A stretch of DNA of 27,171 bases from a virus. Positions 5,201 to 27,171 of the stretch are shown piece by piece. The stretch is from IMG/VR virus record IMGVR_UViG_3300030451_005197, positions 1 to 27,171 of that record; one strand, given 5' to 3'. The translations under genes and the position numbers were made by a program. How positions within the stretch are numbered: the first letter of the stretch is position 1; each line of letters opens with the position of its first letter. Under the pieces are notes generated by a model. It did not search any database and had not been told where the DNA came from. It worked only from the letters and a program-made list of their open reading frames with translations.

Positions 5201-8200
5201 AAGACCTTACTTAAACAGAAAAGTATTTGTAAGTCCTAGTGTCGGAATATCAACATTTAAATCAACTATTACATTTAAAAATCATGGATTTTCAGATGGA
5301 GAAAATATTTCATATGAACCATCTGTTGGTTTAGGTGTTACTAATCCTCAAAGTATTGTTGGATTATCCACAAATATTCAATATAAAGTATTAAAGATAG
5401 ATGATGATAATTTTAGAGTCGCTAATGCTGGTGTAGGTGGAACTGACAATACCAATTTTATAAGTAGAAATCATATAGAATTAAAGACTAAAGGAACTGG
5501 ATATCAACTATTTAAGTATCCAAATATAGAAATTACTGTTAATGCAATTTATTCAGTACCAACCTCAGATAAAATAAATTTAACACCAATAATACAGGGT
5601 AAAATTATTGATGTTTCTCTTTATGAAAATGGAAGTGGTTATGGTAGCACTGATATTATAAACTATGAAAACAAACCAAATGTTGTAATTAAAAACGGAA
5701 CATCTAGAACAGGTAAAAATATAACACCATCAATAAGTCCTATAATATCTGATGGAAAATTAATTAATGTTAATATTCAAGATGGTGGTGCAGAATATCA
5801 TTCAACACCAGATCTAGTCGTTATTGGAAACGGAACGGGAGCTTCGTTAAGGGCAATAATAGACAAAGATGAAAATTCAAACACTTATCTGAAAATTATA
5901 GGTGTAGTTATATTAAATTCTGGTACTGGATATACTTTTGATCAAACTAGAATTAATGTTATTGTAAGAGGATCTAATTGTTTATTTAATACTAATATAG
6001 AAAAATTATCAGTTAATAATATTCAACTTTCAAGTTCAGTGTATTCGAAAAAATATGGTAGGGAATCTTTAGTTGAGTCTATTACTAGTGGATTACAATA
6101 TTCTGTTGTTGGTTATTCTACACAAATAGGTGTAGATGAATATGGTCAAAAAATTGATGATTTTGGAAAAGAATTACATTCTCCTATAATTGGATGGGCA
6201 TATGATGGTAATCCAATATATGGTCCTTTTGGATATGATGATCCTTTTGATAATTCATCTACAGTTAGGGCATTAAAAAGCGGATATTCTCTGAATTCTA
6301 GCATTAAAGATCGAGGTGATTTACCTTTTGACTTAGGATTTTTTGTAGATGATTATTCATATACACCAGTAAATGATTTAGATGAGCATAATGGTAGATA
6401 TTGTAAAACACCAGATTATCCAAATGGAGTTTATGCATATTTTGCTACATTCGATCCAATAAACAAAGAACCACAATTTCCATATTTTATTGGTAAAACA
6501 TACAGATCAATGCCAGAGGTTTTAGATCCTCTTAGAGTATTATCACAATCTTTTGATTTTAACAATTCTGAATTAGTTAGAAATACATTCCCATACAAAT
6601 TATCTGATCCAAATGCTGGTAATGATTTTATTATTGAATCCAATGAAATAATACCTCAAATTACTAAAGTTACCTCTGTAACTCAAGGTTTTATAAACTC
6701 ATTAGAAATTTTAAAATCAGGACAAGATTATAAAATTAATGATAATGTAGTTCTTGATGATTCTGGAACTGGTGGTAGTGGAGCAACTGCTTTTGTCAGT
6801 AAAATTGAAGGAAAACCGATAACAGAAATTAATACAACATTTGAATCTTTAGAAAATGTTACTTTTATTAGAAAAGATTCTGATACTATATCGGTATTTG
6901 TGTCAGATACACATGATCTTGATGTTGGAGATAACTTAGAAATATCAGGTTTAAGCACAGATATTAAATCATTAACTGATGAACCTTTAATAGGAAATCA
7001 TAATGTTTCATTTGTACCCAGTGAATCAACAATTTTATATAAAGAACTGCAATCAAATTCAAACACTGGAATTATAACTGACATATTTGTATACAAAACA
7101 GATGTCATTTCAGTTGGAAGTAGTATTGGAATTGGAACTGAAAAATTAATTGTTTTGAATAAATTTGATGATAGGAATATTTTGAGAGTTGAGAGAGGAA
7201 TAACTGGAACAGCACATTCATTCTCTTCTAAAGTAAACTTAATTCCTAGCTTCTTTGATATTCCTTTTAAATCAACTGCATTTGACTCTAAAGTAGATGA
7301 TGTTGTATATTTTAATCCTAGACAATCTGTTGGAATCGCTACAACTGTTGGAATATCATCATCTGTATCAGTAACTGTTGGGGACATTACAAGTCAAGTA
7401 TCTGTACCTGCACAAAGTATTTACTTGCCAAATCATCCATTTAAAACAGGTCAACAAGTAACATTAAAAACTGATGGTAATAGTTCTATTGAAGTGTCTA
7501 GGGATGGGTCGGGTTTATCAAATCAAGTATTTACGATTCCATTCTCAGGATCAACTCAAAATTTATTTGTAATAAACAAATCACCAAATTATATTGGAAT
7601 AGTAACTCAGGTAGGTTTAATAACATCAACAAATGGATTATTCTTTAGAACTAATGGAGATGATTACTATAAGTATAGATTCGAATCTAATTTTGACAAA
7701 GTAATTGGAAATATAGAAAGAATTAATTCATCAGTATCTTTAAGTACATCTCATAATTTATCAGTTGGTGACATTATTACTTTAGAAATTAATTCGGATA
7801 GATCAGTTGGAATTGGAACATCTAGTTCAATTAAAGTTAAGTATAATGATCTGACAGATAGTTTATTAGTAAATGAAATTGGATTTACATCAGCAGGTGT
7901 AAACACTGAAACAAATCAAATAACTTTAAATTCTCATGGATTAATAACTGGAGATAAAGTTTATTATGATGCAGATGATGAAGTTATTAGTGGTCTTGAT
8001 ACTGGTGGATATTTTGTCTACAGGTTAGATAGTAATACTATAAAATTAGCAAAAACATTTTACAACTCTAAAATTGTTCCACCAGATACTATGGGTTTAG
8101 TATCAATTGGTGGATCAGAACAAAAAATATCATTAATCAATCCACCTATTTCTGTTATTAGAGACAATGATTTAGTATTTGATGTTTCAGATTCTTCTCT

Positions 8201-11200
8201 AAATGGATTTGACTTTAAAATTTATCAAGATGAAAATTTTGATAATAATTTCGTATCAACGGGAACAACAGAAACAAATACTGTTTCAACATCTGGAACT
8301 CCTGGTGTAACACCAACAGCTACAGTAACAGTAAATTATTCAGTAGATAATCCTTCAAACTTATTTTATAATGTTGAAAAATCTGGTTTTATAAGCACCT
8401 CTGATATAGATGTTAAAAATAGTTCTAGAATATCTTATGCTGATAGTAAATATAATCAAGATTATTCCATTGTTAGTTTACCATCAGATACTCAATTTAA
8501 TATTAGATTAAAATCAAAACCTGAGATACTTGTATATAATAAATCAAACACAGATGTTTTAAAGTATAGCACAACATCAAAAACAGATAAGGGATCAATT
8601 AATAAAATAAACTTGTCATCTGGTGGAGGAGGATATAAAAATTCTCCTAGATTTGTAAGTGTAGCATCAACACAGGGGATTAATGCTAAATTATTACCAG
8701 ATTCAGCAACTACCAATAAAATTGAAAATGTAGATATATTAAATGTTGGATTTGAATATCCTTCCGATAAAACTTTAACTCCAATAGCAAATTTATCACC
8801 AGTAATTACCACTGTAAATTCAAATAAAATTACTTCTGTTGTTGTTACTGATGGTGGAAGAAATTTTATATCTGAACCAATATTAGTATTGCAAGATAAT
8901 GAAACTAAAAAAATTGTAGAAAGTGGATCCTTTAAAGCAAATGTAAATGAATCTCAATCAATATCTAGTGTTGATGTATTGACTGTAGCACAAGGTATAG
9001 GTGATTGCACTTTATTTACTAAAGAAAATACAAACGGAATACCAATTACAAATATAACAATAGGATCTACTATTGTTACTAATAGTGTTAGTGGTATAGT
9101 CACTGTCACATTAGCTACTCCTGTTTTAGGATTTTCAACAGCACCTTTTGAGGTTGGAGATACTCTTTTTGTAGAGGGAGTAGATAATGAGTATGGAGAT
9201 ACTTTTAATTCTCCAGTTAATCAATTTAGTTTTTACCCAGTTACAAATATACTTGGTGGAACTAATCCTAATCCATTTAGAATGGAATTTAACATCAGTG
9301 AATCTGTTTCAAATCCTGGTCTTGCAAAAACCTTACAAAATTTTGCATCTGTAGTTAACTTTAAAAGTTATCCTAAATTTAATTTGATAACAGAATTACC
9401 TGAATTTTTAACTGGAGAACAAATTTTAGTATCAAGAGATGATGGAACTTTACCTGAGGGTTTCAATTCTGTTGGTCTTACATTAGATAAAGTAACTAAT
9501 AATTATATAAAAGTTTTAGGTGATTTTGAATTGCAAAAAAATGATAGGTTAAAAGGGTCATTCTCTGGTGTGATAGCGACCATTAATACTATATTTTTCA
9601 ATAAAGGTAAATTTAATGTTAATTTTGGAGCAAATAGAAATATTGGTTGGTCTAATGATATTGGAAAATTAAATCAAGATTATCAAGTCATCCCAGATAA
9701 TGATTATTATCAAACATTATCATACACTATTCAAAGTCCAATTGAATATCAAACATTAGTAAGTCCAGTTAATAGTTTATTACATACAACGGGTTTGAAA
9801 AACTTTGCAGATGTTGGAATTTCAACTGCTGTTGGAGTCGGATCAACAGTTTCTGTAGATACCTCTACTATAATTAGAGATTTGACAACAGAAAACCGAG
9901 TTGATGCAATCAATGATTTTGATTTAGTTAAAGATGTAGATACCTTAACTAATCCAATTAGGTCTAAATTTGTAAGTTTTAATCAAGTCACACTATCAAA
10001 CTTTTTTGAATGTAGAACAAATAAAGTTTTATTGATGGATAATATTAATTCTCTCTTTAAAAGTGCTACTAATAATGCTCAAGTCGATGGATCACTTAGC
10101 ATCTTAAGTGCTTTTAATAGATTTTTAGTGCAGACAAGAGTTCCTTCAGTTAGTGCTGGCATTGGTTCAACCACAAATACTGTACAAGTAACTGAATTAA
10201 TAGTATTTGCAGATTTCATCAATGAAAATATCTATACAATTCAAAAAGGAATCCTAGATGATGAAAGTCCAATAGTTGATTTTATAGGTGATAAGACTAA
10301 TGATGATGTTTATAGATTAAGATTTGTACCAACAGATCCTAATGATGTTGATTTACAACTTAAAATTTTACAACAAACATTTTTACCAGGTTCATCGAGT
10401 GGAACTACAACAGTGGGATTTGTTACTTTAAGTAATTCTAATCAAAATGTTCTACCTTCTGTAACATCTACAATAGCATCTTCAAATATATCAAATACAG
10501 AATCATTCTTTACTACGATTGAAGTTACAGATGCAATTACAAATGATAATAATATCATTGAAATTTATACCACTCATGATGGAACAAACTCATTCATATC
10601 AAACTACTCATTAGAAACTAATACAGGAGTATCAATAGGAACATTTACATCAGAAATTGATTCAAGTGTTTTAAAACTAAACTATAATAATGACACTTCA
10701 AATGAAGTTTTAATCAAATCAAAAACAGTTGGTTTTGGTACAACAGCATCTGGAATAGGAACATACAGATTTAAGACAAGTTCACAACCAGATGGTTCTG
10801 AAAATTCAGCTAGATTTGAATCAAACTTTGTTAGCATTGCATCCACAGATGTAATATCTGGTTTTACAACTACAAAAGATGCAACGATTAAAAGTATAAT
10901 TAGAGTTTCTGTTGGAGAAACAAGTTCATTACATCAGACTCTCATGACTCATGATGGTGAAAATACTTTCTTAACACATTATCCTTTCATATCAATTGGA
11001 AATGACGTTGGTATGGGAACGTTCTCCTCAGAATACAGTGGAAGTAATTTAAATTTAAAATTCCATCCTGACAATGATTTTATTGGAGTTGATTTACAAG
11101 TTCAATCATTCCATGAGATTATTAACTCAGATATAGATTTACTCAATATACCCCCATCTCTTCAATATGGAAATTCTTTAGAAACATTATCATTGTTAGA

Positions 11201-14200
11201 ATTTGATTCTTTAAATGGTACTTCTAAGGATAGATTAAGTTTCCCATTAACACATAATGGATCTTTAATATTTGCAAAATATTTTGATCCATCAACGTCT
11301 GTCAATTTGGCAACAGGAGAATTTAGTATTGAAAATAATTTCTTTAATAGGAATGAACGATTAATTTATGAACCAGGTTCTTCCATTGATGGTGTTGGTA
11401 TATCATCATTAGTAATGTCAAATGGAAATCCATTACCTAGAGAAGTTTATGTTGTTAACCCAGAGGAAACAGTAAATTCACAATTATTTAAATTATCTTT
11501 AACTAAAGGTGGAACTGCAATTACGTTTAATTCTGTAGGATCTGGAAATAGACATAAATTAGAAATGTTTAAAAAGAATGAAAAATCTTTCATAACTTTA
11601 GATGACGTATTACAATCTCCAGTATCTTACACACCTATAACAACTAATTTAGTCAACAATGTTAGTGGTCAAGTATCTATATCTACTTCAATAATATCTT
11701 TATCTGGAATTGGCACTATCGTAAGTTCTGATATTTTAAAGATTGATGAAGAATTTGTTAGAGTAAATAATGTTGGTTTTGGAACAACAAATGTAGGTCC
11801 AATATCTAATACAGGTTCTTTTAAACTAATAGATGTTACTAGATCAATATTAGGAACTGCAGTAACAACTCATAACGATGCAACAACTGTTAGGTTATAC
11901 AAAGGTAGTTATAATATTGTGGAAGAAAATATATTTTTCACAGATCCTCCTAGAGGAACTAGTATTATTTCTAAAAATGATTCAAATAGGGATTTTGGTA
12001 GATCTAATTTTGGTGGAAGAGCATACTTAAGACAAGATTATTCTACTAATGTGGTTTTTGATGATATATCAACAGAATTTACAGGTTTGGGTAGAACATT
12101 TACAACATTAGTATCAGGTGTAAACACAACTGGAATTACAACTGGTAGTTCTTTCTTAACATTAAATGGAATATTCCAAGCACCAACAACTGTTAAGAAT
12201 CCTAATAATAACTATGAATTTGAAGAATCAGTTGGTGTAACTAGTTTTGTCTTTAGTGGTATCTCATCGACTGATGGTACACCAATAACAAGTGAGTTTG
12301 ATGTAAATCTAAATCAATTGCCTAGATCTGGTCAAATTATATCAATAGGATTCAGTGGAGGTTTAGGTATTGCTCCTCTTGCTGGTGCATCAGTTACAGC
12401 TGTTGTAGGTGGATCTGGTTCTATCACAGCAGTGGGTGTAGGGTCTACTGATCAAAATGGATCTGGTTATAGACCTGAGTTAAGTAGTACAGGAAACGGA
12501 ATTATTGCCATTGGTATTACTGATAGTACAGGAAACGGTGCTGAAGTTACAGCAACTGTCGGTGCTGGTGGTACTTTAATATATTCTGTTCAAGATGGTG
12601 GTAGTGGATATACTAATCCCAGAGTTATATCACCTATGCCAAATTATGAAAATTTACCCGTAATAGGTATATCAAGATTAGGAACTGGATCCACTACAGA
12701 AACAGGGACAGGATTATTACTAAACATTGAAGTGGGTGGTAGTAATACAACTGGTATTGGATCTACGTTATTTGAAGTTAAATCATTTGATATAACAAGG
12801 ACTGGATATGGATTTAGAAAAGGTGATAAATTTAAACCAGTTGGTTTGATTACAGATAAAAGTCTGTCATCACCGCTAGAGGACATTGAATTTACTGTAG
12901 AAAGTGTATTTACTGATACTTTCTGCTCTTGGAATGTTGGAGAATTTGACTATATTGATTCTATAAAACAACTTCAAGATGGAACTAGAAAAAGATTCCC
13001 TCTAAACTTTAATGGTGAATTAGTTTCCTTCCAACCACAAAAGGGTGCTAATATTGATATGGATTCACTGTTATTGATAATAATAAATGGTGTTGTACAA
13101 AATCCAGGAGAATCTTACAATTTTAATGGAGGAACATCTTTCGAATTTACTGAAGCACCTGATCCTGAGGATAATGTATTAGTATTTTTCTATATTGGAA
13201 CAGATAATGTCGATGTCATATTCAATGATGCGAGAGAAACTATAAAGGTTGGTGATGAAATTAGAATTACGAGATCTAATAGTTTAGTAGGACCTGATCA
13301 AGATAGAAGAACAGTAACGGGTATAAAAACATCAGAAGTATTGGAAACAAACATATACATTGATCAAAATGGTATACAACCAAATGTACTTAAACCTGTG
13401 AGATGGATAAAGCAAAAGAGAGATAAGATTGTGAATGGAGATTTAGTATTAAAGACAAGACCCTCTATTGAACCTCTTGTATTTCCAGAAGCTAGAATAA
13501 TTAAAGATATTGGGTCTGCAGATACCACAATTCACATTGATAATGTTGGACTAGGAACAAATTCACTAACAAATTTATTTTTCTATGAAAATCCAAATAA
13601 TATTGGAACAATTGTGTTTGATGAATCTGTAGAACCTAGAGCAGCAGATTTAACTGCAGTTGTTTCTGCTGGTGGAACAATTCAATCTATTACTGTTAAT
13701 GATGGTGGAAGTGGATATGTGGGTTCTAGCACTGCATTATCAATTGCTTCACCAATATCTAATACTGGAGTTGCTTTAACATCATCTGATTTAATTTTAT
13801 TAGGGATAGGATCTTTTGGTGCCACAGCAAATGCTAATATTACAAGTGGTATTATAACTTCAGTATCAATTGTAAATCCTGGATTTGGATATACAACAAC
13901 TGCAGTTCCAAATGTGATCGCACCAACACCAACTATTCCTTCTGAATTGATTACTGGATTTACTGGTTCAAGTGGATTCTCAGGTATTGTTACAGCAATA
14001 GACGTTTTGAGTAGTTCAACTATAAAATTCTTCTTAGAGAAAGAGTCTGGAACATTCAGTGGACTAGGAAATGGAGATCCAATTTACATATTTGACACTG
14101 CAGTTGGTGCAGGTGTTACTTCAGTAGTTACCTCCTCAGGTGCTCCTGTAGGAATTGGTACATCATTCTTTGACAACATATATTTAATTAGTTCTTACAG

Positions 14201-14459
14201 TACAACATCTAATACTGCTGAATTTGTTGCTGGTGTAAAAACTGATACATCACTCACTGGTATTTCAACTAGTGGTATATCTGGTAAGTTCTCTTGGGGC
14301 AAACTTACTGGTGGTGTTAGATCAACTACAAACCCAATTTCAGTTACTATTTCAGGTAAAACTGTTAATTCAGGTTTAACAACTTTCCCAAGATTACAGA
14401 GAAGAAATTCTGGTATTAGGGGCACTGGTGCTGTATCTGATAAAGATACTCTCATATAA
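2295..14459 (+). CDS. Giant modular baseplate protein in the gp7 position, with YHYH-like domain
   Basis: A 4,054-residue virion protein between genes 6 and 8, the place of the wedge initiator gp7 in T4 (about 1,030 residues there). By position it is a gp7 counterpart; I cannot show direct homology to T4 gp7. The head (about residues 1-240) holds YYISQEYTGAPVDLIDNLDQ and ESKGTEESFRILFNVLYG, as in cyanophage structural proteins I recognise. The rest is a chain of beta-rich modules: five H..tGd.VYY-type copies between about 635 and 1920, GSGY-type units from about 770 to 3870, a YHYH-like domain at about 1260-1405, and three tandem THDG-type units at about 2616-2944. A conserved block at about 3546-3758 contains DQDRRTVTGIKTSEVLETNI and KPVRWIKQKRDKIVNGD. 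No signal peptide or membrane segment is seen. The frame is uninterrupted over 12 kb. It probably extends the outer wedge as a fibrous or adhesive structure (inference). Confidence 0.85.
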   Translation: MISTGIDTRIKTQQIIDNQLPEFILSESPEAVDFLKQYYISQEYTGAPVDLIDNLDQYLKLDNLTPEVVTGKTNLSVGIGTADETITVTSTKGFPASYGLFKIDDEIITYKEKTATQFLECERGFSGITTYRDLDNPSELLFSTTTASTHESNANVQNLSVLFLQEFYKKLKKTFTPGLENANFIETLDVNNFIKESRSFYESKGTEESFRILFNVLYGVDPKVIDLEEYLIKPSSATYVRRKRIIAEQLSGDPLNLKGQTIFRTTDTASSASISEVEILTGISGISTTTNYFILDVFVGFDDAEFITGTFEVTGKTKVIDDIEKDSKVITVDSTIGFSTSGKIISGINTDIHYTDKTINQFLNCSGIDNPINLGDDILADDKIFGYENGDLTKKVELRITGVVDKFIPNENNKLSIEGETITVKSIGELIKNPIKDKTQKQIFANSWNYNTSSNYNIVFTKEQESKLKVSSTIDKSSLKVGDEVQILERKTSKFSLGNVVTFTLNNSPKSIFKVLEISDDNTEVTIDETLTFSRTLKYSLRRVLRKAANDIDPITFEPIGAPIEFGDNKLTSDVQNVYNESDTHLYVASNSLPSHPIAKDISQAGITTVDTSITGTIQGQDPSTKKYSIISFSNEVPFVTGDKVYYEPESVSLVGLDSGFYFVKTVSNNHNQIKLFKAPAFIESDRFIEFDVPTIKNTKHNFILASQYDKKISSQKLLKKYPIIVNQNLGKNVEVDSGSVGMLIDGVEIQSLKSSDSIFYGSIEEFTVASSGSGYDIINPPVIEIGSVSTASTQALASPIISGDITEIQVDPQNFDIEDIVSIQLTGGNSSEAVLQPILRKRNRILEFSGVTTAFGGGIDTNSETVTFFNPHNIVSGQVLVYDRNDNLPLGIGTYQGSNQGTETLVDGQQYWPEVVGLSTILLYRSEGDYVSGINTIGFTNVAKNGVHKFRLKEAKNTLSGIRVLKSGRPYLNRKVFVSPSVGISTFKSTITFKNHGFSDGENISYEPSVGLGVTNPQSIVGLSTNIQYKVLKIDDDNFRVANAGVGGTDNTNFISRNHIELKTKGTGYQLFKYPNIEITVNAIYSVPTSDKINLTPIIQGKIIDVSLYENGSGYGSTDIINYENKPNVVIKNGTSRTGKNITPSISPIISDGKLINVNIQDGGAEYHSTPDLVVIGNGTGASLRAIIDKDENSNTYLKIIGVVILNSGTGYTFDQTRINVIVRGSNCLFNTNIEKLSVNNIQLSSSVYSKKYGRESLVESITSGLQYSVVGYSTQIGVDEYGQKIDDFGKELHSPIIGWAYDGNPIYGPFGYDDPFDNSSTVRALKSGYSLNSSIKDRGDLPFDLGFFVDDYSYTPVNDLDEHNGRYCKTPDYPNGVYAYFATFDPINKEPQFPYFIGKTYRSMPEVLDPLRVLSQSFDFNNSELVRNTFPYKLSDPNAGNDFIIESNEIIPQITKVTSVTQGFINSLEILKSGQDYKINDNVVLDDSGTGGSGATAFVSKIEGKPITEINTTFESLENVTFIRKDSDTISVFVSDTHDLDVGDNLEISGLSTDIKSLTDEPLIGNHNVSFVPSESTILYKELQSNSNTGIITDIFVYKTDVISVGSSIGIGTEKLIVLNKFDDRNILRVERGITGTAHSFSSKVNLIPSFFDIPFKSTAFDSKVDDVVYFNPRQSVGIATTVGISSSVSVTVGDITSQVSVPAQSIYLPNHPFKTGQQVTLKTDGNSSIEVSRDGSGLSNQVFTIPFSGSTQNLFVINKSPNYIGIVTQVGLITSTNGLFFRTNGDDYYKYRFESNFDKVIGNIERINSSVSLSTSHNLSVGDIITLEINSDRSVGIGTSSSIKVKYNDLTDSLLVNEIGFTSAGVNTETNQITLNSHGLITGDKVYYDADDEVISGLDTGGYFVYRLDSNTIKLAKTFYNSKIVPPDTMGLVSIGGSEQKISLINPPISVIRDNDLVFDVSDSSLNGFDFKIYQDENFDNNFVSTGTTETNTVSTSGTPGVTPTATVTVNYSVDNPSNLFYNVEKSGFISTSDIDVKNSSRISYADSKYNQDYSIVSLPSDTQFNIRLKSKPEILVYNKSNTDVLKYSTTSKTDKGSINKINLSSGGGGYKNSPRFVSVASTQGINAKLLPDSATTNKIENVDILNVGFEYPSDKTLTPIANLSPVITTVNSNKITSVVVTDGGRNFISEPILVLQDNETKKIVESGSFKANVNESQSISSVDVLTVAQGIGDCTLFTKENTNGIPITNITIGSTIVTNSVSGIVTVTLATPVLGFSTAPFEVGDTLFVEGVDNEYGDTFNSPVNQFSFYPVTNILGGTNPNPFRMEFNISESVSNPGLAKTLQNFASVVNFKSYPKFNLITELPEFLTGEQILVSRDDGTLPEGFNSVGLTLDKVTNNYIKVLGDFELQKNDRLKGSFSGVIATINTIFFNKGKFNVNFGANRNIGWSNDIGKLNQDYQVIPDNDYYQTLSYTIQSPIEYQTLVSPVNSLLHTTGLKNFADVGISTAVGVGSTVSVDTSTIIRDLTTENRVDAINDFDLVKDVDTLTNPIRSKFVSFNQVTLSNFFECRTNKVLLMDNINSLFKSATNNAQVDGSLSILSAFNRFLVQTRVPSVSAGIGSTTNTVQVTELIVFADFINENIYTIQKGILDDESPIVDFIGDKTNDDVYRLRFVPTDPNDVDLQLKILQQTFLPGSSSGTTTVGFVTLSNSNQNVLPSVTSTIASSNISNTESFFTTIEVTDAITNDNNIIEIYTTHDGTNSFISNYSLETNTGVSIGTFTSEIDSSVLKLNYNNDTSNEVLIKSKTVGFGTTASGIGTYRFKTSSQPDGSENSARFESNFVSIASTDVISGFTTTKDATIKSIIRVSVGETSSLHQTLMTHDGENTFLTHYPFISIGNDVGMGTFSSEYSGSNLNLKFHPDNDFIGVDLQVQSFHEIINSDIDLLNIPPSLQYGNSLETLSLLEFDSLNGTSKDRLSFPLTHNGSLIFAKYFDPSTSVNLATGEFSIENNFFNRNERLIYEPGSSIDGVGISSLVMSNGNPLPREVYVVNPEETVNSQLFKLSLTKGGTAITFNSVGSGNRHKLEMFKKNEKSFITLDDVLQSPVSYTPITTNLVNNVSGQVSISTSIISLSGIGTIVSSDILKIDEEFVRVNNVGFGTTNVGPISNTGSFKLIDVTRSILGTAVTTHNDATTVRLYKGSYNIVEENIFFTDPPRGTSIISKNDSNRDFGRSNFGGRAYLRQDYSTNVVFDDISTEFTGLGRTFTTLVSGVNTTGITTGSSFLTLNGIFQAPTTVKNPNNNYEFEESVGVTSFVFSGISSTDGTPITSEFDVNLNQLPRSGQIISIGFSGGLGIAPLAGASVTAVVGGSGSITAVGVGSTDQNGSGYRPELSSTGNGIIAIGITDSTGNGAEVTATVGAGGTLIYSVQDGGSGYTNPRVISPMPNYENLPVIGISRLGTGSTTETGTGLLLNIEVGGSNTTGIGSTLFEVKSFDITRTGYGFRKGDKFKPVGLITDKSLSSPLEDIEFTVESVFTDTFCSWNVGEFDYIDSIKQLQDGTRKRFPLNFNGELVSFQPQKGANIDMDSLLLIIINGVVQNPGESYNFNGGTSFEFTEAPDPEDNVLVFFYIGTDNVDVIFNDARETIKVGDEIRITRSNSLVGPDQDRRTVTGIKTSEVLETNIYIDQNGIQPNVLKPVRWIKQKRDKIVNGDLVLKTRPSIEPLVFPEARIIKDIGSADTTIHIDNVGLGTNSLTNLFFYENPNNIGTIVFDESVEPRAADLTAVVSAGGTIQSITVNDGGSGYVGSSTALSIASPISNTGVALTSSDLILLGIGSFGATANANITSGIITSVSIVNPGFGYTTTAVPNVIAPTPTIPSELITGFTGSSGFSGIVTAIDVLSSSTIKFFLEKESGTFSGLGNGDPIYIFDTAVGAGVTSVVTSSGAPVGIGTSFFDNIYLISSYSTTSNTAEFVAGVKTDTSLTGISTSGISGKFSWGKLTGGVRSTTNPISVTISGKTVNSGLTTFPRLQRRNSGIRGTGAVSDKDTLI
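6090..6509 (+). other. YHYH-like domain inside the giant protein
   Basis: Residues about 1266-1405 match the YHYH domain family: HSPIIGWAYDGNPIYGPFGY (starting at His1295), then DLDEHNGRYCKTPDYPNGVY and a closing FPYFIGKTYRS. The family's name-giving YHYH tetrad would be expected a little upstream. At that place the protein reads GLQYSVVGYS, so those His residues are not visible. Such domains occur in phage structural proteins and in secreted bacterial proteins; the function is poorly defined. I infer a structural or receptor-facing role here. Confidence 0.8.
10141..11125 (+). repeat. Three tandem THDG-type modules in the giant protein
   Basis: Three diverged protein-level repeats of about 85-120 residues lie in a row. 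The second (about 10480-10740) and third (about 10863-11120) share THDG.N.F...Y, then IG....GTFSSE-like and a closing L.L.....(D/N) block. The first (about 10141-10430) keeps mainly the end, YRLRFVPTDPNDVDLQLKI, comparable to LNLKFHPDNDFIGVDLQVQS in the third. Both spacers after copies one and two contain TVGF. The copies were spotted by eye, and the first is the weakest. Confidence 0.55.
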
Positions 14460-16150: not shown

Positions 16151-19100
16151 ATGTCACAGAAAACAAATTTAAATATAAGTCCTTATTATGATGATTTTAA
16201 TGACGACAATAATTTTTACAGAGTCTTATTCCGACCAGGTAGACCTGTTCAGGCAAGAGAATTAACAACACTTCAATCAATATTGCAAAACCAATTGCAA
16301 TCTTTTGGTAGTCATGTGTTTAAGGAAGGATCAATGGTTCTTCCTGGTGGTGTAAGTTATGATGATTCTTATTTTTCAATAAGAGTAGAATCAGAACATT
16401 TAGGTCTTCCAATATCACTTTATCTAGATCAATTAAAAGGAAAAAAACTAAAAGGTCAAAATTCTGGGATAGAACTTTTGGTTAATGACTGTAAAACAAT
16501 AAATGAAGCAGAGGGTATTACAGATATTACAATTTTTGTAAAATACTTAACGGGAAATAATGAAAATATAAGTGCAAATTTGGAAGATAGTGAGTCTTTA
16601 ATTACTTTAGAAGATATCACTTACGGAAATACAACTATAGTAAATGGTGAAAGTGTCGCCACATTAGTGCCTACAAACGCTTCAGCAACTGGTAGTGCAG
16701 TTAAAATGAATGAAGGTGTATATTTTGTTAGAGGAACCTTTATAAGCGTTCCTTCAAGCACTATAGTATTAGATGCATATTCAAATGAACCTTCATATAG
16801 AGTTGGATTAAATATTACAGAATCAATCATCACCGCAAAAGACGATTCATCATTGTATGATAATGCAAAAGGATTTTCTAATTTTGCAGCACCTGGTGCA
16901 GATAGGTTGAAGATAACAGCAACACTTGCTAAAAAATCTTTAACAGATACGAGTGATGTTAGTTTTGTAGAAATAATTAAATTAAGAGAAGGTGAACTTA
17001 AAAAATTACAAGATTTTTCTGTATATAACGAATTAGAAAAATATCTAGCTGCTAGAACATTTGAAGAATCTGGAAATTATTCAATAGATAATTTTGAAGT
17101 CAAAGTAGCAGATTCTTTAGATACTGGTCTTTCAAATGGAGGAGTATATAAATCTAACGAAATTACTGAGGATGGTAATACTCCATCAGATGATTTGGGT
17201 TGTATTGAAGTAAGTGCTGGAAAAGCATATGTACAAGGTTTTAGGATTGATAAACCTGGAACAACTATTGTAGATTTTGAGAAACCAAGAGATAAAGGAA
17301 CAACAGGAACTGCACTAGTTCCGTTTGAAATGGGAACTATAGTACGTGTTAATAACATATCAGGAACACCTGCTTTAGGAACTAATGTAGATGCAAATAC
17401 AGTTTCACTTTTAAGTCGAAGAAAAGATACAGTGGTTGCAACTGGAATTCCTACTGGTTCTTACGAAATAGGAAAAGCAAGAGTATATTCATTTGGATTA
17501 AGAAATGCTCCATATGAAGGGAATGATAGTCAGTGGAATCTTTATTTGTTTGATGTTCAAACATATACAATGATTACTCTAAATGCACCTTTATCAGCAC
17601 CACAAAGTACTTTTGTTAGAGGTGCTAGTAGCGGTGCTACAGGATTTCTCAACGCATTAGTTACCAGTGGGACTGAAATCGTATTGTCTCAAACATCTGG
17701 TACCTTTATTCCTAGTGAAAAATTAATTATCAATGAAGATGAAGAATCATTTAGATCTGTAGTATCAGTTAGACAATATACTTTTCAAGATATAAAGTCA
17801 GTTTATCAAAATAGTAGTGCATTAATAGCTGGTTTCATAGATTTTAGTGCAGATACGATATTAGAAACTACTCGTATACAATCATTACCATCTTTTAATA
17901 ATAGTGTAATTTCATCAAGTAATGGTCTTACAGGAACTATAACATCACCTGGAAATGCATTTACAGGTATAAAAACAGATTCTATCATACAATATCAAAC
18001 TGCAGGAACTACTGACATCAATTTTAATAGAGTTACTGCTATTAGTGCAGATTTAAAAACCTTAACTGTTGCTGGAGTTACAACTGTTACTGGGGTAAAT
18101 GATGGTGCAGTTGGTCTTAATACCACATCTTCAATATCTTTAGCATCTCCAGTTGTTGTAGATAAAGAAAACACTGGATTGTATGCAAAATTAGGATTTG
18201 ATAATATATGTGAAGTAAATTTAGCAAACTCTACTTTATCAGTTTCATCACAGTCTAGTATACTCAGTGTTAGTGGTGCTAATTCAGTACAAGTAGAGGT
18301 TCCTGCAGGTATATCAAGTTCATTCTTTAGTAATTTTGATACTCAAAAATATTCTTTAATCTATAATGATGGAGTAGTTGAATCATTAACACGAGATCAA
18401 TTTAAATTAGTTGACGGTGGATCAAAAGTACAATTTAGTGGATTAAGTAAAAGTACTTTTACAGGGATTCTAAACACAACTATAGAAAAACAAGGAATTA
18501 CAAATAAATCAAAACAATTTGTAAGAAGTAGTAAGATTATCATTGATAAAACTAAAGTTGGTGTAACTACATCTACAAATGGATTGACATACAACAGATA
18601 TTATGGATTAAGAATAGAGGACAGAGAGATATCTTTAAATACTCCAGACGTAGTGAATGTAGTATCTATATTAGAGTCTAAAGATAATAACAATCCAACT
18701 TTAGATAGAATAACAACTATATCAGGTCTTTCCTTAAACACCAATACTATTGATGGTGAGAGAATAATTGGATCAGAAAGTGGTGCTACGGCTCAATTAA
18801 TTACTAGAGTAGATGCTGAAAATGTTGAGGTTGCATACTTCACAGATACTAAATTTGTTTTAGGTGAAACAATAACATTTCAAGAATCAAATATTGTAAC
18901 TACTGTTCAAGCAATTAATTTAGGAAACAATATAAATGTAACTGAAAAATATACTTTAGATAAAGGTCAGAGAGAACAGTTTTATGATTACTCAAGAATT
19001 GTAAGAAAAGCAACTCTCTCTGCACCATCTAGAAGACTTTTAGTAATATTTAATTTTTATGAGGTTCCAACTACTGATACTGGTGATGTATTTACAGTTA

Positions 19101-22100
19101 ACTCATACGATCAAGATAGATTTACAGATGATATTCCAGTTTTAGAAAACAATTTAAGGACTTCAGATACACTTGATTTTAGACCTAGAGTTGCACCAAC
19201 AACTAATATTGCAGAATCTCCATTTGCATTTACATCTAGGAGTTTTGCTACATCAGGCACACCACCACTCGTAGTTTCTCCAGAGGGAGATTCCACTTTA
19301 GGTTATAGTTATTTCTTACCTAGAATTGATAAGTTAATTTTAAGTCGTGGAGAAGCCTATGATGGAGATTTTTCAGTTATAAAAGGTGTTTCATCACTTA
19401 ATCCAAAACCACCTGTATTAACTGATGGTGCTATGCATCTTGCAACAATAGATCTTCCAGCATATCTTTACAAACCAAGTGACGCAAAGGTAACTGTTAT
19501 TGAAAACAGAAGATATACCATGAGGGATATTGGTAAATTAGAAGATAGAATAGAAAATTTAGAAACTGTTACTAGTTTAAGTTTACTTGAATTAGATACT
19601 AAAACTTTACAAATTAAAGATACAACTGGTGATAGATTTAAATCTGGATTTTTTGTAGATGATTTTAAAGATCCTAATCGTATTGATGTGACAAATCAAG
19701 ATACTAAAGTTAATATCGATACAGAAAACAATGAATTAGTAGTTCCACAAGAATATTACAGTCTTAAACCACTATTAGGTGTATCAGAAAGTATTGATAT
19801 TAATAGTGCAGACTTTTCTCAAAACCTAGCTTTATTAGATCCAAATGTTAGAAAAACAGGTGATATAATAACACTAGATTACACAGAAGTAAAATCTGAT
19901 ATTGGTAACCCTCAAGCAAGTAGAGTTGAAAATGTCAACCCATACGAAGTTGTTGTTCGTGACGGTAGAATTGCATTAGATCCATCAGAAGATAACTGGA
20001 CAAGAACAATTGAAGTTGATGGTGGAACAAGAACTCTTATTGGAGATAATGCAGGTACATCAACAGCAAGAATTTTAACATCTTCAGTTGAAGAACCATT
20101 TATTAGATCTAGGAACGTTGGATTTAGTGCTCTAAATTTAATGCCATCAGTTAGACATTATCCATTTTTTGATGGAAGAAGTGGTATTGATATTATTCCA
20201 AAATTATTAGAAATTTCTATGGTTTCTGGAACATTTTCAATAACTGAAACTGTTCGTGGTATTTCAACAGATGGTAATCAAATATTTGCATTTAGAGTTG
20301 CACAACCAAACCATAAAACAGGATCTTATAATAACCCAACTTCAGTATTTCCAAGTAATCCTTATAATACTTCACTTTCTTTGGGCACATCCTATACAGA
20401 ATCCTCAACAGTATTAAATGTTGATATTGCTTCTTTATCTCATGATCCTCGATTTTTTGGTAGATTAATTTCGGGTATGAGATTCGTTGGAGAAAGTAGT
20501 GGTGCCATTGCCACGTTGACTAATAATAGATTAATTCCTGATGAATTTGGTGCTGTTTTTGGATCATTCTTCTTTAGAGATCCAAATACAACTCCACCAC
20601 CACCTTTAAGATTTGAGAATGGAATAAAGACATTTAGATTAACATCTGATGCTAATGACGCTGCTGCTACAAGGGGAGATGAAGGTATTGGTATAACTTT
20701 TGGTGAAGGTAGATACAGTACGTTTGGTTTAATTAATACATTTACATCAACAACAACAATAATTCGTCGTCCACCTCCACCACCACCAGCTGCTTTACCT
20801 CCAGCAAGGATTAACAGAAGAGGAAGAAGGAACAATCGTGCAGGAAGAAGAGGTGGAAGAAGAGGTGGAAGAGATCCTCTAGCACAATCATTTACAGTTG
20901 ATGAAAGTGGAATGTTCTTATCATCGATAGAAGTTTATTTCTTCGAAAAAGATGATAGAGTACCTTTGACTGTTCAAGTAAGAACTATGGAGTTAGGAAC
21001 TCCTACAGATGAAATACCTGTCGATTGGGCTGAAGTTGTTTTAGATCCAACAACGTTAGACTCTTCTGGTGAGTCAATTATAAAAACTTCTCCAGATGCA
21101 TCTATACCAACTAAAATTACTTTCCCCTCACCAATATATCTTGAACCTGAAAGAGAATATTGTTTTGTTCTTTTAGCACCAGCAACAATAAAATATAAGG
21201 TTTGGATTGCTCAAATGGGAGAAGAGACAATTGAAACCCAAAGACTTGGAGTTGATGAAGGTTCAAAGAGCATCATAACCAAACAATATTTGGGAGGAAG
21301 TTTATTCAAATCTCAGAATGGAACTATTTGGACAGCTACTCAAACACAGGATATGAAGTTCAATCTTTATAAATGTGCATTTAGTACTACTCCAGGTACA
21401 GTTACAATGTTTAATTCTGACATAATAACTGATGATCAAATTAATTCAAAATTACCAGACAATTCTTTAAAAACTTATCCAAGAAAATTAAAAGTTGGTA
21501 TTGATACAACCACTGCTTTAAGTAGTATCATATCAGTAGGAACAAAAGTTACAGCATCAAACACTTCACCATATACTAATTCTGAAGATGCAAAAGGATT
21601 TGTTGAAAAAATTGGAGGACCAATAGATGGCAGTTCTGTAACTGGCGTTGGAACTGGATATGATGATTCCAATTCACCATACACAGTAAACTTATATTCT
21701 ATTACAGGAGAAGGTACAGGAGCAACAGCGTCCGTAACAGTTAATTCTACAGGTTCAGTCACTGGAGTATCAATTGCTTCAACTGGTAATGGATATGTTG
21801 TGGGTGATGTTTTAGGAATCACTACAGCAGATGTAGGAAATGCTGGAACTGGTGCAGAAGTAACAGTCACTAGCAAATTTGGAATGGATACTTTATATCT
21901 AACAAATGTTCAAGGTGAAAAAATTAGTGATGGTAAAAGATTGACATTTTACACTGATGTTTTTGGAGGAACGATTGCTGACTCTGGAGTAAACGTAAGA
22001 GGTGATTCTGTAGTCAATGGTGATTTATACACTGGAAATGTTCTTGAAGTTAACAGTTCAAATCACTCTATGAATGCTATTCAGAACGTTGTGCAAATTG

Positions 22101-23368
22101 ACGGAGTTAAACCAGATACCATCTCTGTTCTCTTAACAGAAAATATTACTTCAACCGATACTACTATTTCTGTTGCAAATACTGCACCATTTAGTACATT
22201 TGAGGGTATAACCACCAGCACTGGTTATGTTCAAATAGGAAAAGAAATTATTTTCTATGATGGAATTGGTGCAGGAAACTTAAGTGTTGGAACAAGAGGT
22301 TTTGGTGGTTCTCCAAAAGATTCTCATTTTGTTAATGATCAAGCATTTAAATATGAGTTTAATGGAATATCCTTAACTGGTATTAATACAACTCATAATT
22401 TACCAAGTAATAATACATTACAATCATTAAAAACAAGTGATAATTATTTCTTGCAAATTGATAGAGGAGCAGGAAGACCTAACTTACAGGATAGGTCAAG
22501 TGGTATAAATCAAATTAGTTTTAATGATGAAAAAATTGGAGGAGAAAGATCAATTGTAGGATCACAAAACTTCCAATATGATGCATTTATTCCATCAATT
22601 CATACTTTCACACCATCAATTGACACTACAATTTCAGCTCAATTAAGATCTGTATCGGGAACAAGTGAAGGTGGTTCTGAAATATCATTTGTAGATCAAG
22701 GATTTGAAGATGTTGAATTTAATCAAATTAATAGATTAGATTCACCTAGACTTTTATGTTCTAAAGTTAATGAAGATGCACAATTGGGTGGTTTACCACG
22801 CAATAAATCAGTTACAATATTAGCTAAACTTGAAACTCTAGATCCTAATGTATCTCCAGTCTTCGATACGATGAATGCTGCATTTAGATTTATAAGGAAT
22901 AGATTAAATTCACCTATAAGTGACTATACTACTGACTCTAGATCAAATAACTTGACAGGTGATCCACATAATGCATGCTATATTTCACAAAAAGTTAATT
23001 TACAACAAGCATCAACATCCTTGAAAGTATTGGTGAGTGCATATAGACACCCATCTGCTGACTTTAGAGTTTTATATAGATTATTTAAAACCGATTCAAG
23101 CGAAGTTGAACAGGCATACGAACTATTTCCTGGTTTTGATAACTTAAGGGATACTGGCATTGATAAAATTATTATTGATCCAAAGTCGAATAGTGGAAGA
23201 CCTGATGTTCCTGTACCTGCAAGTAAAGATAATGAATTCAGAGAATATGAATTTACTGTAGATGAATTGGATGAATTTGTTGGATTCCAAATCAAAATAG
23301 TAATGAGTGGAACTAACGAAGCATATCCTCCAAGATTTAAAGATTTAAGAGTTATTGCTTTAGCATAA
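16151..23368 (+). CDS. Large DUF4815 virion structural protein (gp9/gp10 position)
   Basis: A 2,405-residue structural protein with the DUF4815-type N-terminus: NISPYYDDFNDDNNFYRVLF, then FRPGRPVQARELTTLQSILQ (residues 27-46) and FKEGSMVLPG. This family is found in T4-like cyanophages where T4 carries genes 9-11, so a role in the outer baseplate or tail-fibre attachment is likely; no enzymatic motif is seen. Visible parts are SGA-type repeats (about residues 487-540, 873-925 and 1444-1478), a Pro-rich then Arg/Gly-rich linker at about 1538-1576 followed by DPLAQSFTVDESGMFLSSIE, a pair of GSGY-type units near 1834-1885, an IDDEII-like module near 1994-2067, and a conserved C-terminal beta-sandwich-like tail ending GFQIKIVMSGTNEAYPPRFK. 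Its stop overlaps the next start by one base (TAATG). Confidence 0.88.
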   Translation: MSQKTNLNISPYYDDFNDDNNFYRVLFRPGRPVQARELTTLQSILQNQLQSFGSHVFKEGSMVLPGGVSYDDSYFSIRVESEHLGLPISLYLDQLKGKKLKGQNSGIELLVNDCKTINEAEGITDITIFVKYLTGNNENISANLEDSESLITLEDITYGNTTIVNGESVATLVPTNASATGSAVKMNEGVYFVRGTFISVPSSTIVLDAYSNEPSYRVGLNITESIITAKDDSSLYDNAKGFSNFAAPGADRLKITATLAKKSLTDTSDVSFVEIIKLREGELKKLQDFSVYNELEKYLAARTFEESGNYSIDNFEVKVADSLDTGLSNGGVYKSNEITEDGNTPSDDLGCIEVSAGKAYVQGFRIDKPGTTIVDFEKPRDKGTTGTALVPFEMGTIVRVNNISGTPALGTNVDANTVSLLSRRKDTVVATGIPTGSYEIGKARVYSFGLRNAPYEGNDSQWNLYLFDVQTYTMITLNAPLSAPQSTFVRGASSGATGFLNALVTSGTEIVLSQTSGTFIPSEKLIINEDEESFRSVVSVRQYTFQDIKSVYQNSSALIAGFIDFSADTILETTRIQSLPSFNNSVISSSNGLTGTITSPGNAFTGIKTDSIIQYQTAGTTDINFNRVTAISADLKTLTVAGVTTVTGVNDGAVGLNTTSSISLASPVVVDKENTGLYAKLGFDNICEVNLANSTLSVSSQSSILSVSGANSVQVEVPAGISSSFFSNFDTQKYSLIYNDGVVESLTRDQFKLVDGGSKVQFSGLSKSTFTGILNTTIEKQGITNKSKQFVRSSKIIIDKTKVGVTTSTNGLTYNRYYGLRIEDREISLNTPDVVNVVSILESKDNNNPTLDRITTISGLSLNTNTIDGERIIGSESGATAQLITRVDAENVEVAYFTDTKFVLGETITFQESNIVTTVQAINLGNNINVTEKYTLDKGQREQFYDYSRIVRKATLSAPSRRLLVIFNFYEVPTTDTGDVFTVNSYDQDRFTDDIPVLENNLRTSDTLDFRPRVAPTTNIAESPFAFTSRSFATSGTPPLVVSPEGDSTLGYSYFLPRIDKLILSRGEAYDGDFSVIKGVSSLNPKPPVLTDGAMHLATIDLPAYLYKPSDAKVTVIENRRYTMRDIGKLEDRIENLETVTSLSLLELDTKTLQIKDTTGDRFKSGFFVDDFKDPNRIDVTNQDTKVNIDTENNELVVPQEYYSLKPLLGVSESIDINSADFSQNLALLDPNVRKTGDIITLDYTEVKSDIGNPQASRVENVNPYEVVVRDGRIALDPSEDNWTRTIEVDGGTRTLIGDNAGTSTARILTSSVEEPFIRSRNVGFSALNLMPSVRHYPFFDGRSGIDIIPKLLEISMVSGTFSITETVRGISTDGNQIFAFRVAQPNHKTGSYNNPTSVFPSNPYNTSLSLGTSYTESSTVLNVDIASLSHDPRFFGRLISGMRFVGESSGAIATLTNNRLIPDEFGAVFGSFFFRDPNTTPPPPLRFENGIKTFRLTSDANDAAATRGDEGIGITFGEGRYSTFGLINTFTSTTTIIRRPPPPPPAALPPARINRRGRRNNRAGRRGGRRGGRDPLAQSFTVDESGMFLSSIEVYFFEKDDRVPLTVQVRTMELGTPTDEIPVDWAEVVLDPTTLDSSGESIIKTSPDASIPTKITFPSPIYLEPEREYCFVLLAPATIKYKVWIAQMGEETIETQRLGVDEGSKSIITKQYLGGSLFKSQNGTIWTATQTQDMKFNLYKCAFSTTPGTVTMFNSDIITDDQINSKLPDNSLKTYPRKLKVGIDTTTALSSIISVGTKVTASNTSPYTNSEDAKGFVEKIGGPIDGSSVTGVGTGYDDSNSPYTVNLYSITGEGTGATASVTVNSTGSVTGVSIASTGNGYVVGDVLGITTADVGNAGTGAEVTVTSKFGMDTLYLTNVQGEKISDGKRLTFYTDVFGGTIADSGVNVRGDSVVNGDLYTGNVLEVNSSNHSMNAIQNVVQIDGVKPDTISVLLTENITSTDTTISVANTAPFSTFEGITTSTGYVQIGKEIIFYDGIGAGNLSVGTRGFGGSPKDSHFVNDQAFKYEFNGISLTGINTTHNLPSNNTLQSLKTSDNYFLQIDRGAGRPNLQDRSSGINQISFNDEKIGGERSIVGSQNFQYDAFIPSIHTFTPSIDTTISAQLRSVSGTSEGGSEISFVDQGFEDVEFNQINRLDSPRLLCSKVNEDAQLGGLPRNKSVTILAKLETLDPNVSPVFDTMNAAFRFIRNRLNSPISDYTTDSRSNNLTGDPHNACYISQKVNLQQASTSLKVLVSAYRHPSADFRVLYRLFKTDSSEVEQAYELFPGFDNLRDTGIDKIIIDPKSNSGRPDVPVPASKDNEFREYEFTVDELDEFVGFQIKIVMSGTNEAYPPRFKDLRVIALA
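20762..20878 (+). other. Pro-rich and Arg/Gly-rich linker in the DUF4815 protein
   Basis: Codons about 1538-1576 encode RRPPPPPPAALPP followed by INRRGRRNNRAGRRGGRRGG and then RDPLAQSF. The DNA is a purine-rich tract with near-repeats of GGAAGAAGAGGT on the plus strand. The segment looks like a flexible, strongly basic hinge between two folded halves of an otherwise acidic protein. Confidence 0.85.
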
Positions 23369-25752: not shown

Positions 25753-26406
25753 ATGCCATTAAACCCATTCTTCCTCCAAGGTTCTAAAAATGAACAATTT
25801 TTAGTTCAAGATTTGATTAATGAACAATTAAAAATATATGGTATAGAAGTATTCTATTTACCAAGAAAAATTTTCAAAACTGATAATATTATTAGAGAAG
25901 TTCAATCGTCAAAATTTGATGATTCTTTTGCTATAGAGGCATATTTAAATAATTATGAAGGATACAATCCTAATAGTGATTTAATGACTAAATTTGGATT
26001 GAGGTTAACAAATGAAGTAAGTCTAACAATTTCAAAAGAAAGATTTGAAGAAACTATAACACCATTTTTAGAGGGTATCACATCAGGTATTAAAGATGGT
26101 CTCATAACTGATTATACCTTCGAAGATTTAATTACTAGACCAAAAGAAGGAGATTTAATTTATTTTCCTCTTGGTGAAAGGTTATTTGAAATTAAGAGAG
26201 TTGAATCAGAAAAACCTTTTTATCAATTAGGTAAAAATTACATCTATGAATTAAATAATAATACTTTGCCATATGAAAATCATTTTTATTTTCATACTCA
26301 CGACCTAAAAACTCATAATCTTTTGGTTTTAAAGTTTTTAATATATCTTCATTTATATTTGTATTTCCGTGAAATTTGTAAGGATAATTATCTTCACCAC
26401 GATTAG
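25753..26406 (+). CDS. 14: Neck protein gp14, 3'-truncated at about 26253 (chimeric tail)
   Basis: Residues 1-167 are a clear T4-like marine gp14, the partner of gp13 in the neck: MPLNPFFLQGSKNEQFLVQD, LPRKIF, EVQSSKFDDSFAIEAYLNNY, GLRLTNEVSLTISKERFEE, RPKEGDLIYFPLGERLFEIK and KPFYQLGKNYIYEL. After Leu167 (codon ending 26253) the expected continuation is lost; family members normally go on into an acidic stretch and are longer (T4 gp14 has 256 residues). The remaining codons to the TAG at 26404-26406 read antisense to a minus-strand gene and give a low-complexity His/Leu/Tyr-rich tail without gp14 character. The 217-codon frame is therefore a fusion product of a breakpoint, not a natural gp14. 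AGGA at 25739-25742 is a fitting ribosome binding site. Confidence 0.85.
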   Translation: MPLNPFFLQGSKNEQFLVQDLINEQLKIYGIEVFYLPRKIFKTDNIIREVQSSKFDDSFAIEAYLNNYEGYNPNSDLMTKFGLRLTNEVSLTISKERFEETITPFLEGITSGIKDGLITDYTFEDLITRPKEGDLIYFPLGERLFEIKRVESEKPFYQLGKNYIYELNNNTLPYENHFYFHTHDLKTHNLLVLKFLIYLHLYLYFREICKDNYLHHD

Positions 26407-26515
26407 TAGTGTCCCAAGTAGAAATAAAAAAATCTACATCCCAATCTTTAAAAATATGTTTTGTTATTTCCCAATATCTCATTTCACCTGTTATACAAAC
26501 TGCTATTTTATTCAT
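26192..26515 (-). CDS. Possible glycosyltransferase-like protein, 3'-truncated
   Basis: The first about 93 residues look like a genuine protein start: MNKIAVCITGEMRYWEITKH, DWDVDFFISTWDT, LKPKDYEFLGREYE and MAKYYYLIHRCN. An IAVCITGE..RYW opening followed by DVDFFISTWDT recalls the N-terminal strands of glycosyltransferase-like or surface-polysaccharide proteins of marine bacteria and phages; no catalytic DxD motif or full domain is present, so the function is a guess. After Asn93 (about 26237) the frame runs antisense into gene 14 and ends soon at 26192, so the natural C-terminus is missing. The ATG overlaps the stop of the upstream minus-strand gene by eight bases (ATGAATAA), with AGG about nine bases upstream, which supports the start. 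Confidence 0.6.
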   Translation of the reverse strand: MNKIAVCITGEMRYWEITKHIFKDWDVDFFISTWDTTNRGEDNYPYKFHGNTNINEDILKTLKPKDYEFLGREYENKNDFHMAKYYYLIHRCNFYLIDKKVFLIQLS

Positions 26516-27071
26516 AATTAAAACCTATTCTTTTGATAAAATTAACAAATGGTAAAAACTCTTTTTCTTTTTCACTAATTAAATCTTTACCCTCGTGTAT
26601 ATACCAAGACTCCCAATCCTCTGAAGATAATTTATGATGATTACCTTTGTAGTATTGTGCTATAACATTGAATTCAACTGAATTACAGTACCAATAGTTT
26701 GGTGTAAAAATTGTCATTGGAATAAAACTAATTTTACTCTTGACAATATCATTATTTTTTTGTATATTATATTGTGGAACAATTGTACTGGTTTCTTTAC
26801 TTGACCCACCAGTCTGACTAACTCCAATAACATCACACCATTGTTCAACATCATTTCTAATATTTATTGTTTTTGTTTTAAATACCTTAATTGTTTTTGG
26901 TTTAAGTTTAAAATAAGTGGTTGGTAGTGGTAAGTCATCATCACTAAAACAACAAACATCAAACAACTCATTATTCTTTAATTCAAGTATACTTTTCTGA
27001 TAATTCAAATCCTCTAATGAAACGCCTGATAAGTCAAAGTGTTTATTATTTTTAATTAATCTTAATATCAT
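26508..27071 (-). CDS. Hypothetical protein of unknown function (187 aa, start corrected)
   Basis: I choose the ATG at 27071 (MILRLIKNNKHFDLSGVSLE), giving 187 residues. It has AGGG at 27081-27078, six bases upstream, and the codons further upstream in this frame overlap a different, more protein-like frame. I do not recognise a family. Visible features are a Lys-rich stretch with KTIKVFKTKTINIRNDVEQW, a Gly/Ser/Thr turn near SQTGGSSKETST, and a conserved-looking aromatic C-terminal half (TPNYWYCNSVEFNVIAQYYK, then LSSEDWESWYIHEGKDLI) ending VNFIKRIGFNYE. Cysteines at about residues 39, 40, 77 and 130 form no obvious zinc motif. No membrane segment is visible. It overlaps its neighbours on both sides on the same strand, so the three minus-strand genes form one translationally coupled unit, perhaps for surface carbohydrate work (inference from the next gene only). 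Confidence 0.65.
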   Translation of the reverse strand: MILRLIKNNKHFDLSGVSLEDLNYQKSILELKNNELFDVCCFSDDDLPLPTTYFKLKPKTIKVFKTKTINIRNDVEQWCDVIGVSQTGGSSKETSTIVPQYNIQKNNDIVKSKISFIPMTIFTPNYWYCNSVEFNVIAQYYKGNHHKLSSEDWESWYIHEGKDLISEKEKEFLPFVNFIKRIGFNYE

Positions 27072-27171
27072 ACCCTTCCCTAAAAAATTTTGATTGTATT
27101 TTATGGAACTTTTTTTCTTGCTCTTCTGGTGATTCATAGGTAAAGTTTTTTTTACAATAATCATAGTATTC
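27052..27171 (-). CDS. C-terminal fragment of an unknown protein (5'-partial at window edge)
   Basis: The minus strand from the right edge has an open frame of 39 codons ending with TAA at 27054-27052. It reads EYYDYCKKNFTYESPEEQEK, continues with KFHKIQSKFFREGYDIKIN and stops. Composition (Glu/Lys/Tyr balanced, no low-complexity run) looks more like protein than the competing frame, which would extend the next gene upstream to 27164 through a Lys/Ser/Asn string. Its stop lies 20 bases inside the start of the 187-codon gene, a normal phage overlap. The family is not recognisable from so short a piece. Confidence 0.55.
   Translation of the reverse strand, partial: EYYDYCKKNFTYESPEEQEKKFHKIQSKFFREGYDIKIN

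Follow-up and report, generated by a model that had tools for sequence, protein, structure and literature searches.

The window analyzed here, which is the whole of IMG/VR record IMGVR_UViG_3300030451_005197 (a single marine viral contig of 27,171 bases, the record holding no second contig), is very probably a technical chimera in which two different T4-like phages from one sample are fused, produced as an artefact of library preparation or assembly. Its two flanks have different closest relatives, and each flank is otherwise colinear with its own kin. This agrees with the original prediction that the contig is a chimera formed at a short shared word, with a foreign right side. The predicted head-on breakpoint, cutting both gp14 and a minus-strand gene, was also recovered, since both homologies end at one word; the 915 bases that follow this word make the last 0.9 kb of the contig foreign. 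The features on which the argument rests are the following:

1–26234, plus strand: left parent, a kyanovirus-like T4-type structural module (tblastn synteny with contig G006; blastn against 80 relatives)
25753–26256, plus strand: gp14 (neck protein, head closure Hc2), probable native part, codons 1–168 of about 480 (PF11649, phrog_460/679 and relatives)
26257–26406, plus strand: putative spurious tail of the gp14 ORF, 49 codons running antisense through the foreign gene (gp14 relatives have no similarity past 26256; antisense to a conserved right-lineage gene)
26235–26256, no strand assigned: 22-base shared word at the join, AAATTACATCTATGAATTAAAT, where the left and right homologies overlap
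26192–26236, minus strand: putative spurious tail of the minus-strand ORF, antisense through gp14 (the family alignment ends at Asn93)
26237–26515, minus strand: foreign gene, codons 1–93 of about 227–235 (72–78% identity to G1 and L115; 62–63% to G8/G9/G10)
26508–27164, minus strand: foreign gene with no assigned function, adjoining the 26237–26515 gene in right-lineage contigs (59–70% identity to G1, G8, G9/G10 and L115, in the same order)

The left part and its interrupted gp14

By tblastn synteny, positions 1–26234 of the window correspond to contig G006 from its base 10602 to about 36651, and the colinearity holds for all of 1–26256. The closest annotated record for this part is AG-345-L05 (Marine virus, MH319754, Kyanoviridae), which shares the gene order through gp14; it lacks the right gene pair, and its resemblance to the window breaks off within gp14. 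The structural module also contains two giant ORFs, 2295–14459 (4054 aa) and 16151–23368 (2405 aa), which are conserved in G006 (71% and 79% identity, respectively) and probably encode baseplate or fibre proteins. In exact scans for contigs of the same strain, L003 alone matched the left side, and no contig matched the right side. The exact left parent is known solely through L002 and L003, and the true right parent solely through relatives at 56–78% protein identity.

The gp14 ORF (25753–26406, 217 aa) scored 103.5 bits against the PF11649 profile (cut-off 25), and its position is the one expected for the neck protein, with Ad2 upstream and, in L003, gp15 downstream. A search of IMG/VR yielded 179 gp14 relatives, of which 80 were retained at 82–98% protein identity. 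The DNA similarity to nearly all of these stopped at 26252–26256, with a spurious tail to 26280 in some of them. A base-by-base comparison revealed that the relatives go on with TGT (Cys169), and that the window is fully divergent from 26257. The gene had been described as recognisable to Leu167 (about 26253); the break indeed lies nearby, but the native part extends through codon 168, at 26256.

A comparison of gp14 with its relatives had been proposed as a check, and it showed that they are full-length. In the 77 relatives with a stop inside the contig (the other three were excluded from the length count, as their frame runs off the contig), gp14 measures 466–482 aa, except for one of 834 aa, and a short gp14 was found in none of these 77. 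The window, with 168 native codons, lacks the length seen in its close relatives. L003, which is 98% identical in the gp14 region, encodes a gp14 of 479 aa followed by gp15, and L002, also 98% identical there, likewise keeps a long gp14; the gp14 of AG-345-L05 is 87.5% identical to that of the window. The single exception in length is L080, in which the frame starting at 6001 encodes 834 aa and the surplus looks like inserted or added sequence in the C-terminal half. The original prediction had considered that a phage without an intact gp14, if genuine, should be inviable, and had named relatives with the same truncated gene order as the observation that would count in favour of a genuine join; no such order appeared among the relatives examined. 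Because relatives up to 98% identical keep an intact gp14, the lethal truncation is very probably not real.

The right-hand gene pair belongs to a second lineage

The minus-strand ORF 26515–26192 encodes 107 aa and is preceded on the same strand by a 218-aa ORF. It aligns with a family of 227–235 aa through Asn93 (26237–26239) and then stops, in agreement with the prediction that this gene is real only to about that residue; G8, G9 and G10 all carry its LIHRCN motif unchanged. At the DNA level, similarity to L082/L083 (74%) begins at 26235 and runs nearly to the end of the contig. A full-length relative of the 93-codon gene showed a weak similarity to DUF7796, below the cut-off, which suggests that the 227–235 aa family may be glycosyltransferase-like. 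A distant relative of this family (23%) occurs in Synechococcus phage S-SKS1 at 42.1–42.8 kb. For the 218-aa protein, neither a match in the phage collection nor a Pfam or PHROGs family was found; members of its own family (about 190–218 aa) always adjoin the 227–235 aa family. Bacterial genomes, considered as the source of the right genes, gave no hits.

The use of the 94-aa right protein as a single-sequence peptide pattern returned no matches, the pattern being too strict, and the right lineage was recovered with two-row and four-row alignment scans. Six contigs bearing the right-hand genes emerged from these scans, among them two near-identical pairs: 3300025128_006599 and 3300025099_003085, with equal matches; 3300030376_003004; 3300030095_002976 and the near-identical 3300029448_004691; and 3300030109_002859. 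In all the right-lineage contigs examined, the two genes are adjacent and in the same order. Contigs 3300025128_006599, 3300030095_002976 and 3300030109_002859 carry both adjacent genes of the window, but in them the second gene is complete (227–235 aa), and what follows it is not gp14 but a kinase-like gene, then an endolysin and, where the contig reaches it, TerL. The TerL proteins of the right and left lineages are about 33% identical, and the nearest named relatives of the right-lineage structural region are Flavobacterium phage immuto and Microcystis phage Mel-JY01. Both types occur together in sample 3300030095, where G009 represents the right lineage, and L036 and L048 represent the left one.

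Contigs L083 (41–5243), L104 and L115, which represent a T4-like marine lineage without a close named relative, carry just upstream of endolysin and TerL a long gene run resembling sugar or surface modification, with transketolase-like halves, an FkbM methyltransferase and an epimerase-like gene.

The original prediction had left open whether the right side came from another part of the same genome or from another phage; as far as the relatives show, the second option holds. The first would correspond to an inversion or an MDA chimera within one genome, in which the gene pair would have its native place elsewhere in this phage and would have been attached here in head-on orientation. The orientation of the join agrees with this explanation, given that MDA chimeras are mostly inverted and intramolecular, with priming words of up to 21 bases (PMC1855051). 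However, the gene pair is missing from the 149 kb of the left-lineage record AG-345-L05 and from G006, and in the collection scans no lineage but the second carried it. Codon usage also leans towards the second lineage: the right segment has a log ratio of −6.4, as compared with a mean of −7.4 (sd 4.9) for the right lineage and of +4.3 (sd 4.5) for the left, the left model here being derived from the left-side genes of the window itself. This measure is moderately informative; when AG-345-L05 was used as the left codon model the result was uninformative, since the left genes of the window then scored like the right lineage. Taken with the distribution of the gene pair, these results make an origin within one genome highly unlikely.

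The shared word and the position of the crossover

The two good reading frames had been reported to overlap in a word of about 17 bases (26237–26253). The word exists, although it is wider, spanning 22 bases (26235–26256). The left-type contig L003 agrees with it at 21 of 22 positions, the sole difference being at 26241, and the right-type G9 also agrees at 21 of 22, with a difference in the His codon. Base 26241 is T (codon TAT) in all 80 left relatives, and C in the window and in all right relatives. Since the window carries the base of the right lineage, the crossover most likely lies within 26235–26240. If about 6 of the 22 positions allow such a crossover and a left strain carries C in about 1 of 80 cases, the odds for this placement would be roughly 30 to 1. 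The simplest reading of the alignment is that the bases from 26241 on are right-derived. The parents agree at about 21 of the 22 bases of the word, so that the join would consist, head-on, of six exact bases, one mismatch and 15 more bases.

To evaluate this match, AG-345-L05 (149 kb) and G001 (76 kb) were used as parents in 400,000 random inverted joins. The best 22-base match obtained was 18/22, and 19/22 was never reached, which shows that the shared word guided the join. A chimera produced by random ligation was ruled out by the same simulation. These two genomes have 49 inverted 15-mers in common, so words of this kind are available by chance; however, their inverted matches stay below 18 bases, and neither orientation yields a shared 21-mer. 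An exact 41-mer spanning the junction was present in no other viral contig of IMG/VR, a scan that may leave out records very near the window.

How the join may have arisen

In the favoured explanation, the bases to about 26240 derive from a kyanovirus-like phage and those from 26241 on from the second lineage, joined head-on. During amplification or library preparation, a minus strand of the second phage with its 3′ end near 26235 would have annealed to gp14 of the first through 21 standard pairs and one G–T pair at 26241, and would then have been extended along the gp14 template. A polymerase template switch that tolerates the mismatch and extends the right end would retain the C at 26241. 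The same artefact could have been reached by another route, with an assembler bridging the same word. By either route, neither gene would be truncated in a living phage.

The assembly route supposes that a de Bruijn assembler, working with its shortest k (about 21), passed between the two genomes via an exact 21–22-mer. At 22 bases, the word at 26235–26256 is as long as the smallest k-mers that are commonly used, and beyond it the contig runs for just 915 bases. Nonetheless, this route requires a C at 26241 in the left phage, a position at which all 80 relatives have T; with the T, the longest exact word shared with L003 is 15 bases (26242–26256), as opposed to 22 with the C. The lack of a common 21-mer between AG-345-L05 and G001 in either orientation also speaks against it. 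Within the artefact verdict, an assembly misjoin is thus a possible but lesser share, fitting the junction less well than a template switch does, and we lean towards the library route. Against the latter, a chimera formed in the library is usually a minority molecule, over which the true path should prevail during assembly except where coverage is low or amplification is uneven.

The prediction had named MDA as one possible origin of such a join, beside misassembly and microhomology-mediated recombination. In MDA with phi29, more than 85% of the chimeric junctions are inverted, and they form mainly within one molecule, between sites less than 10 kb apart, at priming words of about 2–21 bases (Lasken and Stockwell 2007, PMC1855051). 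The window junction resembles these in its head-on orientation, in the complementary word at the join, within the 2–21 bases described, and in its otherwise intact flanks. It differs in that two phages are joined instead of one molecule, and in that the word would include one mismatch. Because the right side comes from another lineage, the usual MDA explanation, an intramolecular inversion within 10 kb, is weakened; the inverted join at a short word stands. As two phages are joined, the event meant here would be an intermolecular MDA event or one at a PCR step. Fusions at short homologous sequences, in which unrelated templates are joined by mispriming at a short word during reverse transcription or PCR, offer a parallel: two unrelated templates meet at a short shared word there as well, although these fusions are described for cDNA and PCR products (PMC4858267).

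A genuine recombination between co-infecting T4-like phages, through strand invasion directed by microhomology, would leave a genome that is defective or that has a second gp14 elsewhere. Replication in T4-like phages proceeds through recombination, a process to which a shared word of this kind would lend itself. In addition, the gene pair lies within the sugar and surface gene region of the right lineage, and regions of this type are often exchanged. On the other hand, gp14 would lose about 310 of its 480 residues, both genes are cut, contrary to what selection would keep, and neither the junction nor a short gp14 was found in any relative. The two lineages are also far apart, and their hosts may differ. 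We therefore regard genuine recombination as quite improbable, and slightly more so the specific case of a recombinant from one cell, joined at the near-identical 22-base word, whose genome was packaged and is defective or helper-dependent. If true, such a recombinant would show that a cyanophage-type lineage exchanged DNA directly with one nearer to the Flavobacterium phages.

Implications

The preferred reading, a technical chimera, does away with the false claim of a phage whose neck protein is incomplete. One diagnostic base, at 26241, can help to separate a template switch from an exact-k-mer misassembly. Bases 26241–27171 should not be assigned to this phage, as a kyanovirus would then be given two genes that belong to an uncultured T4-like lineage.
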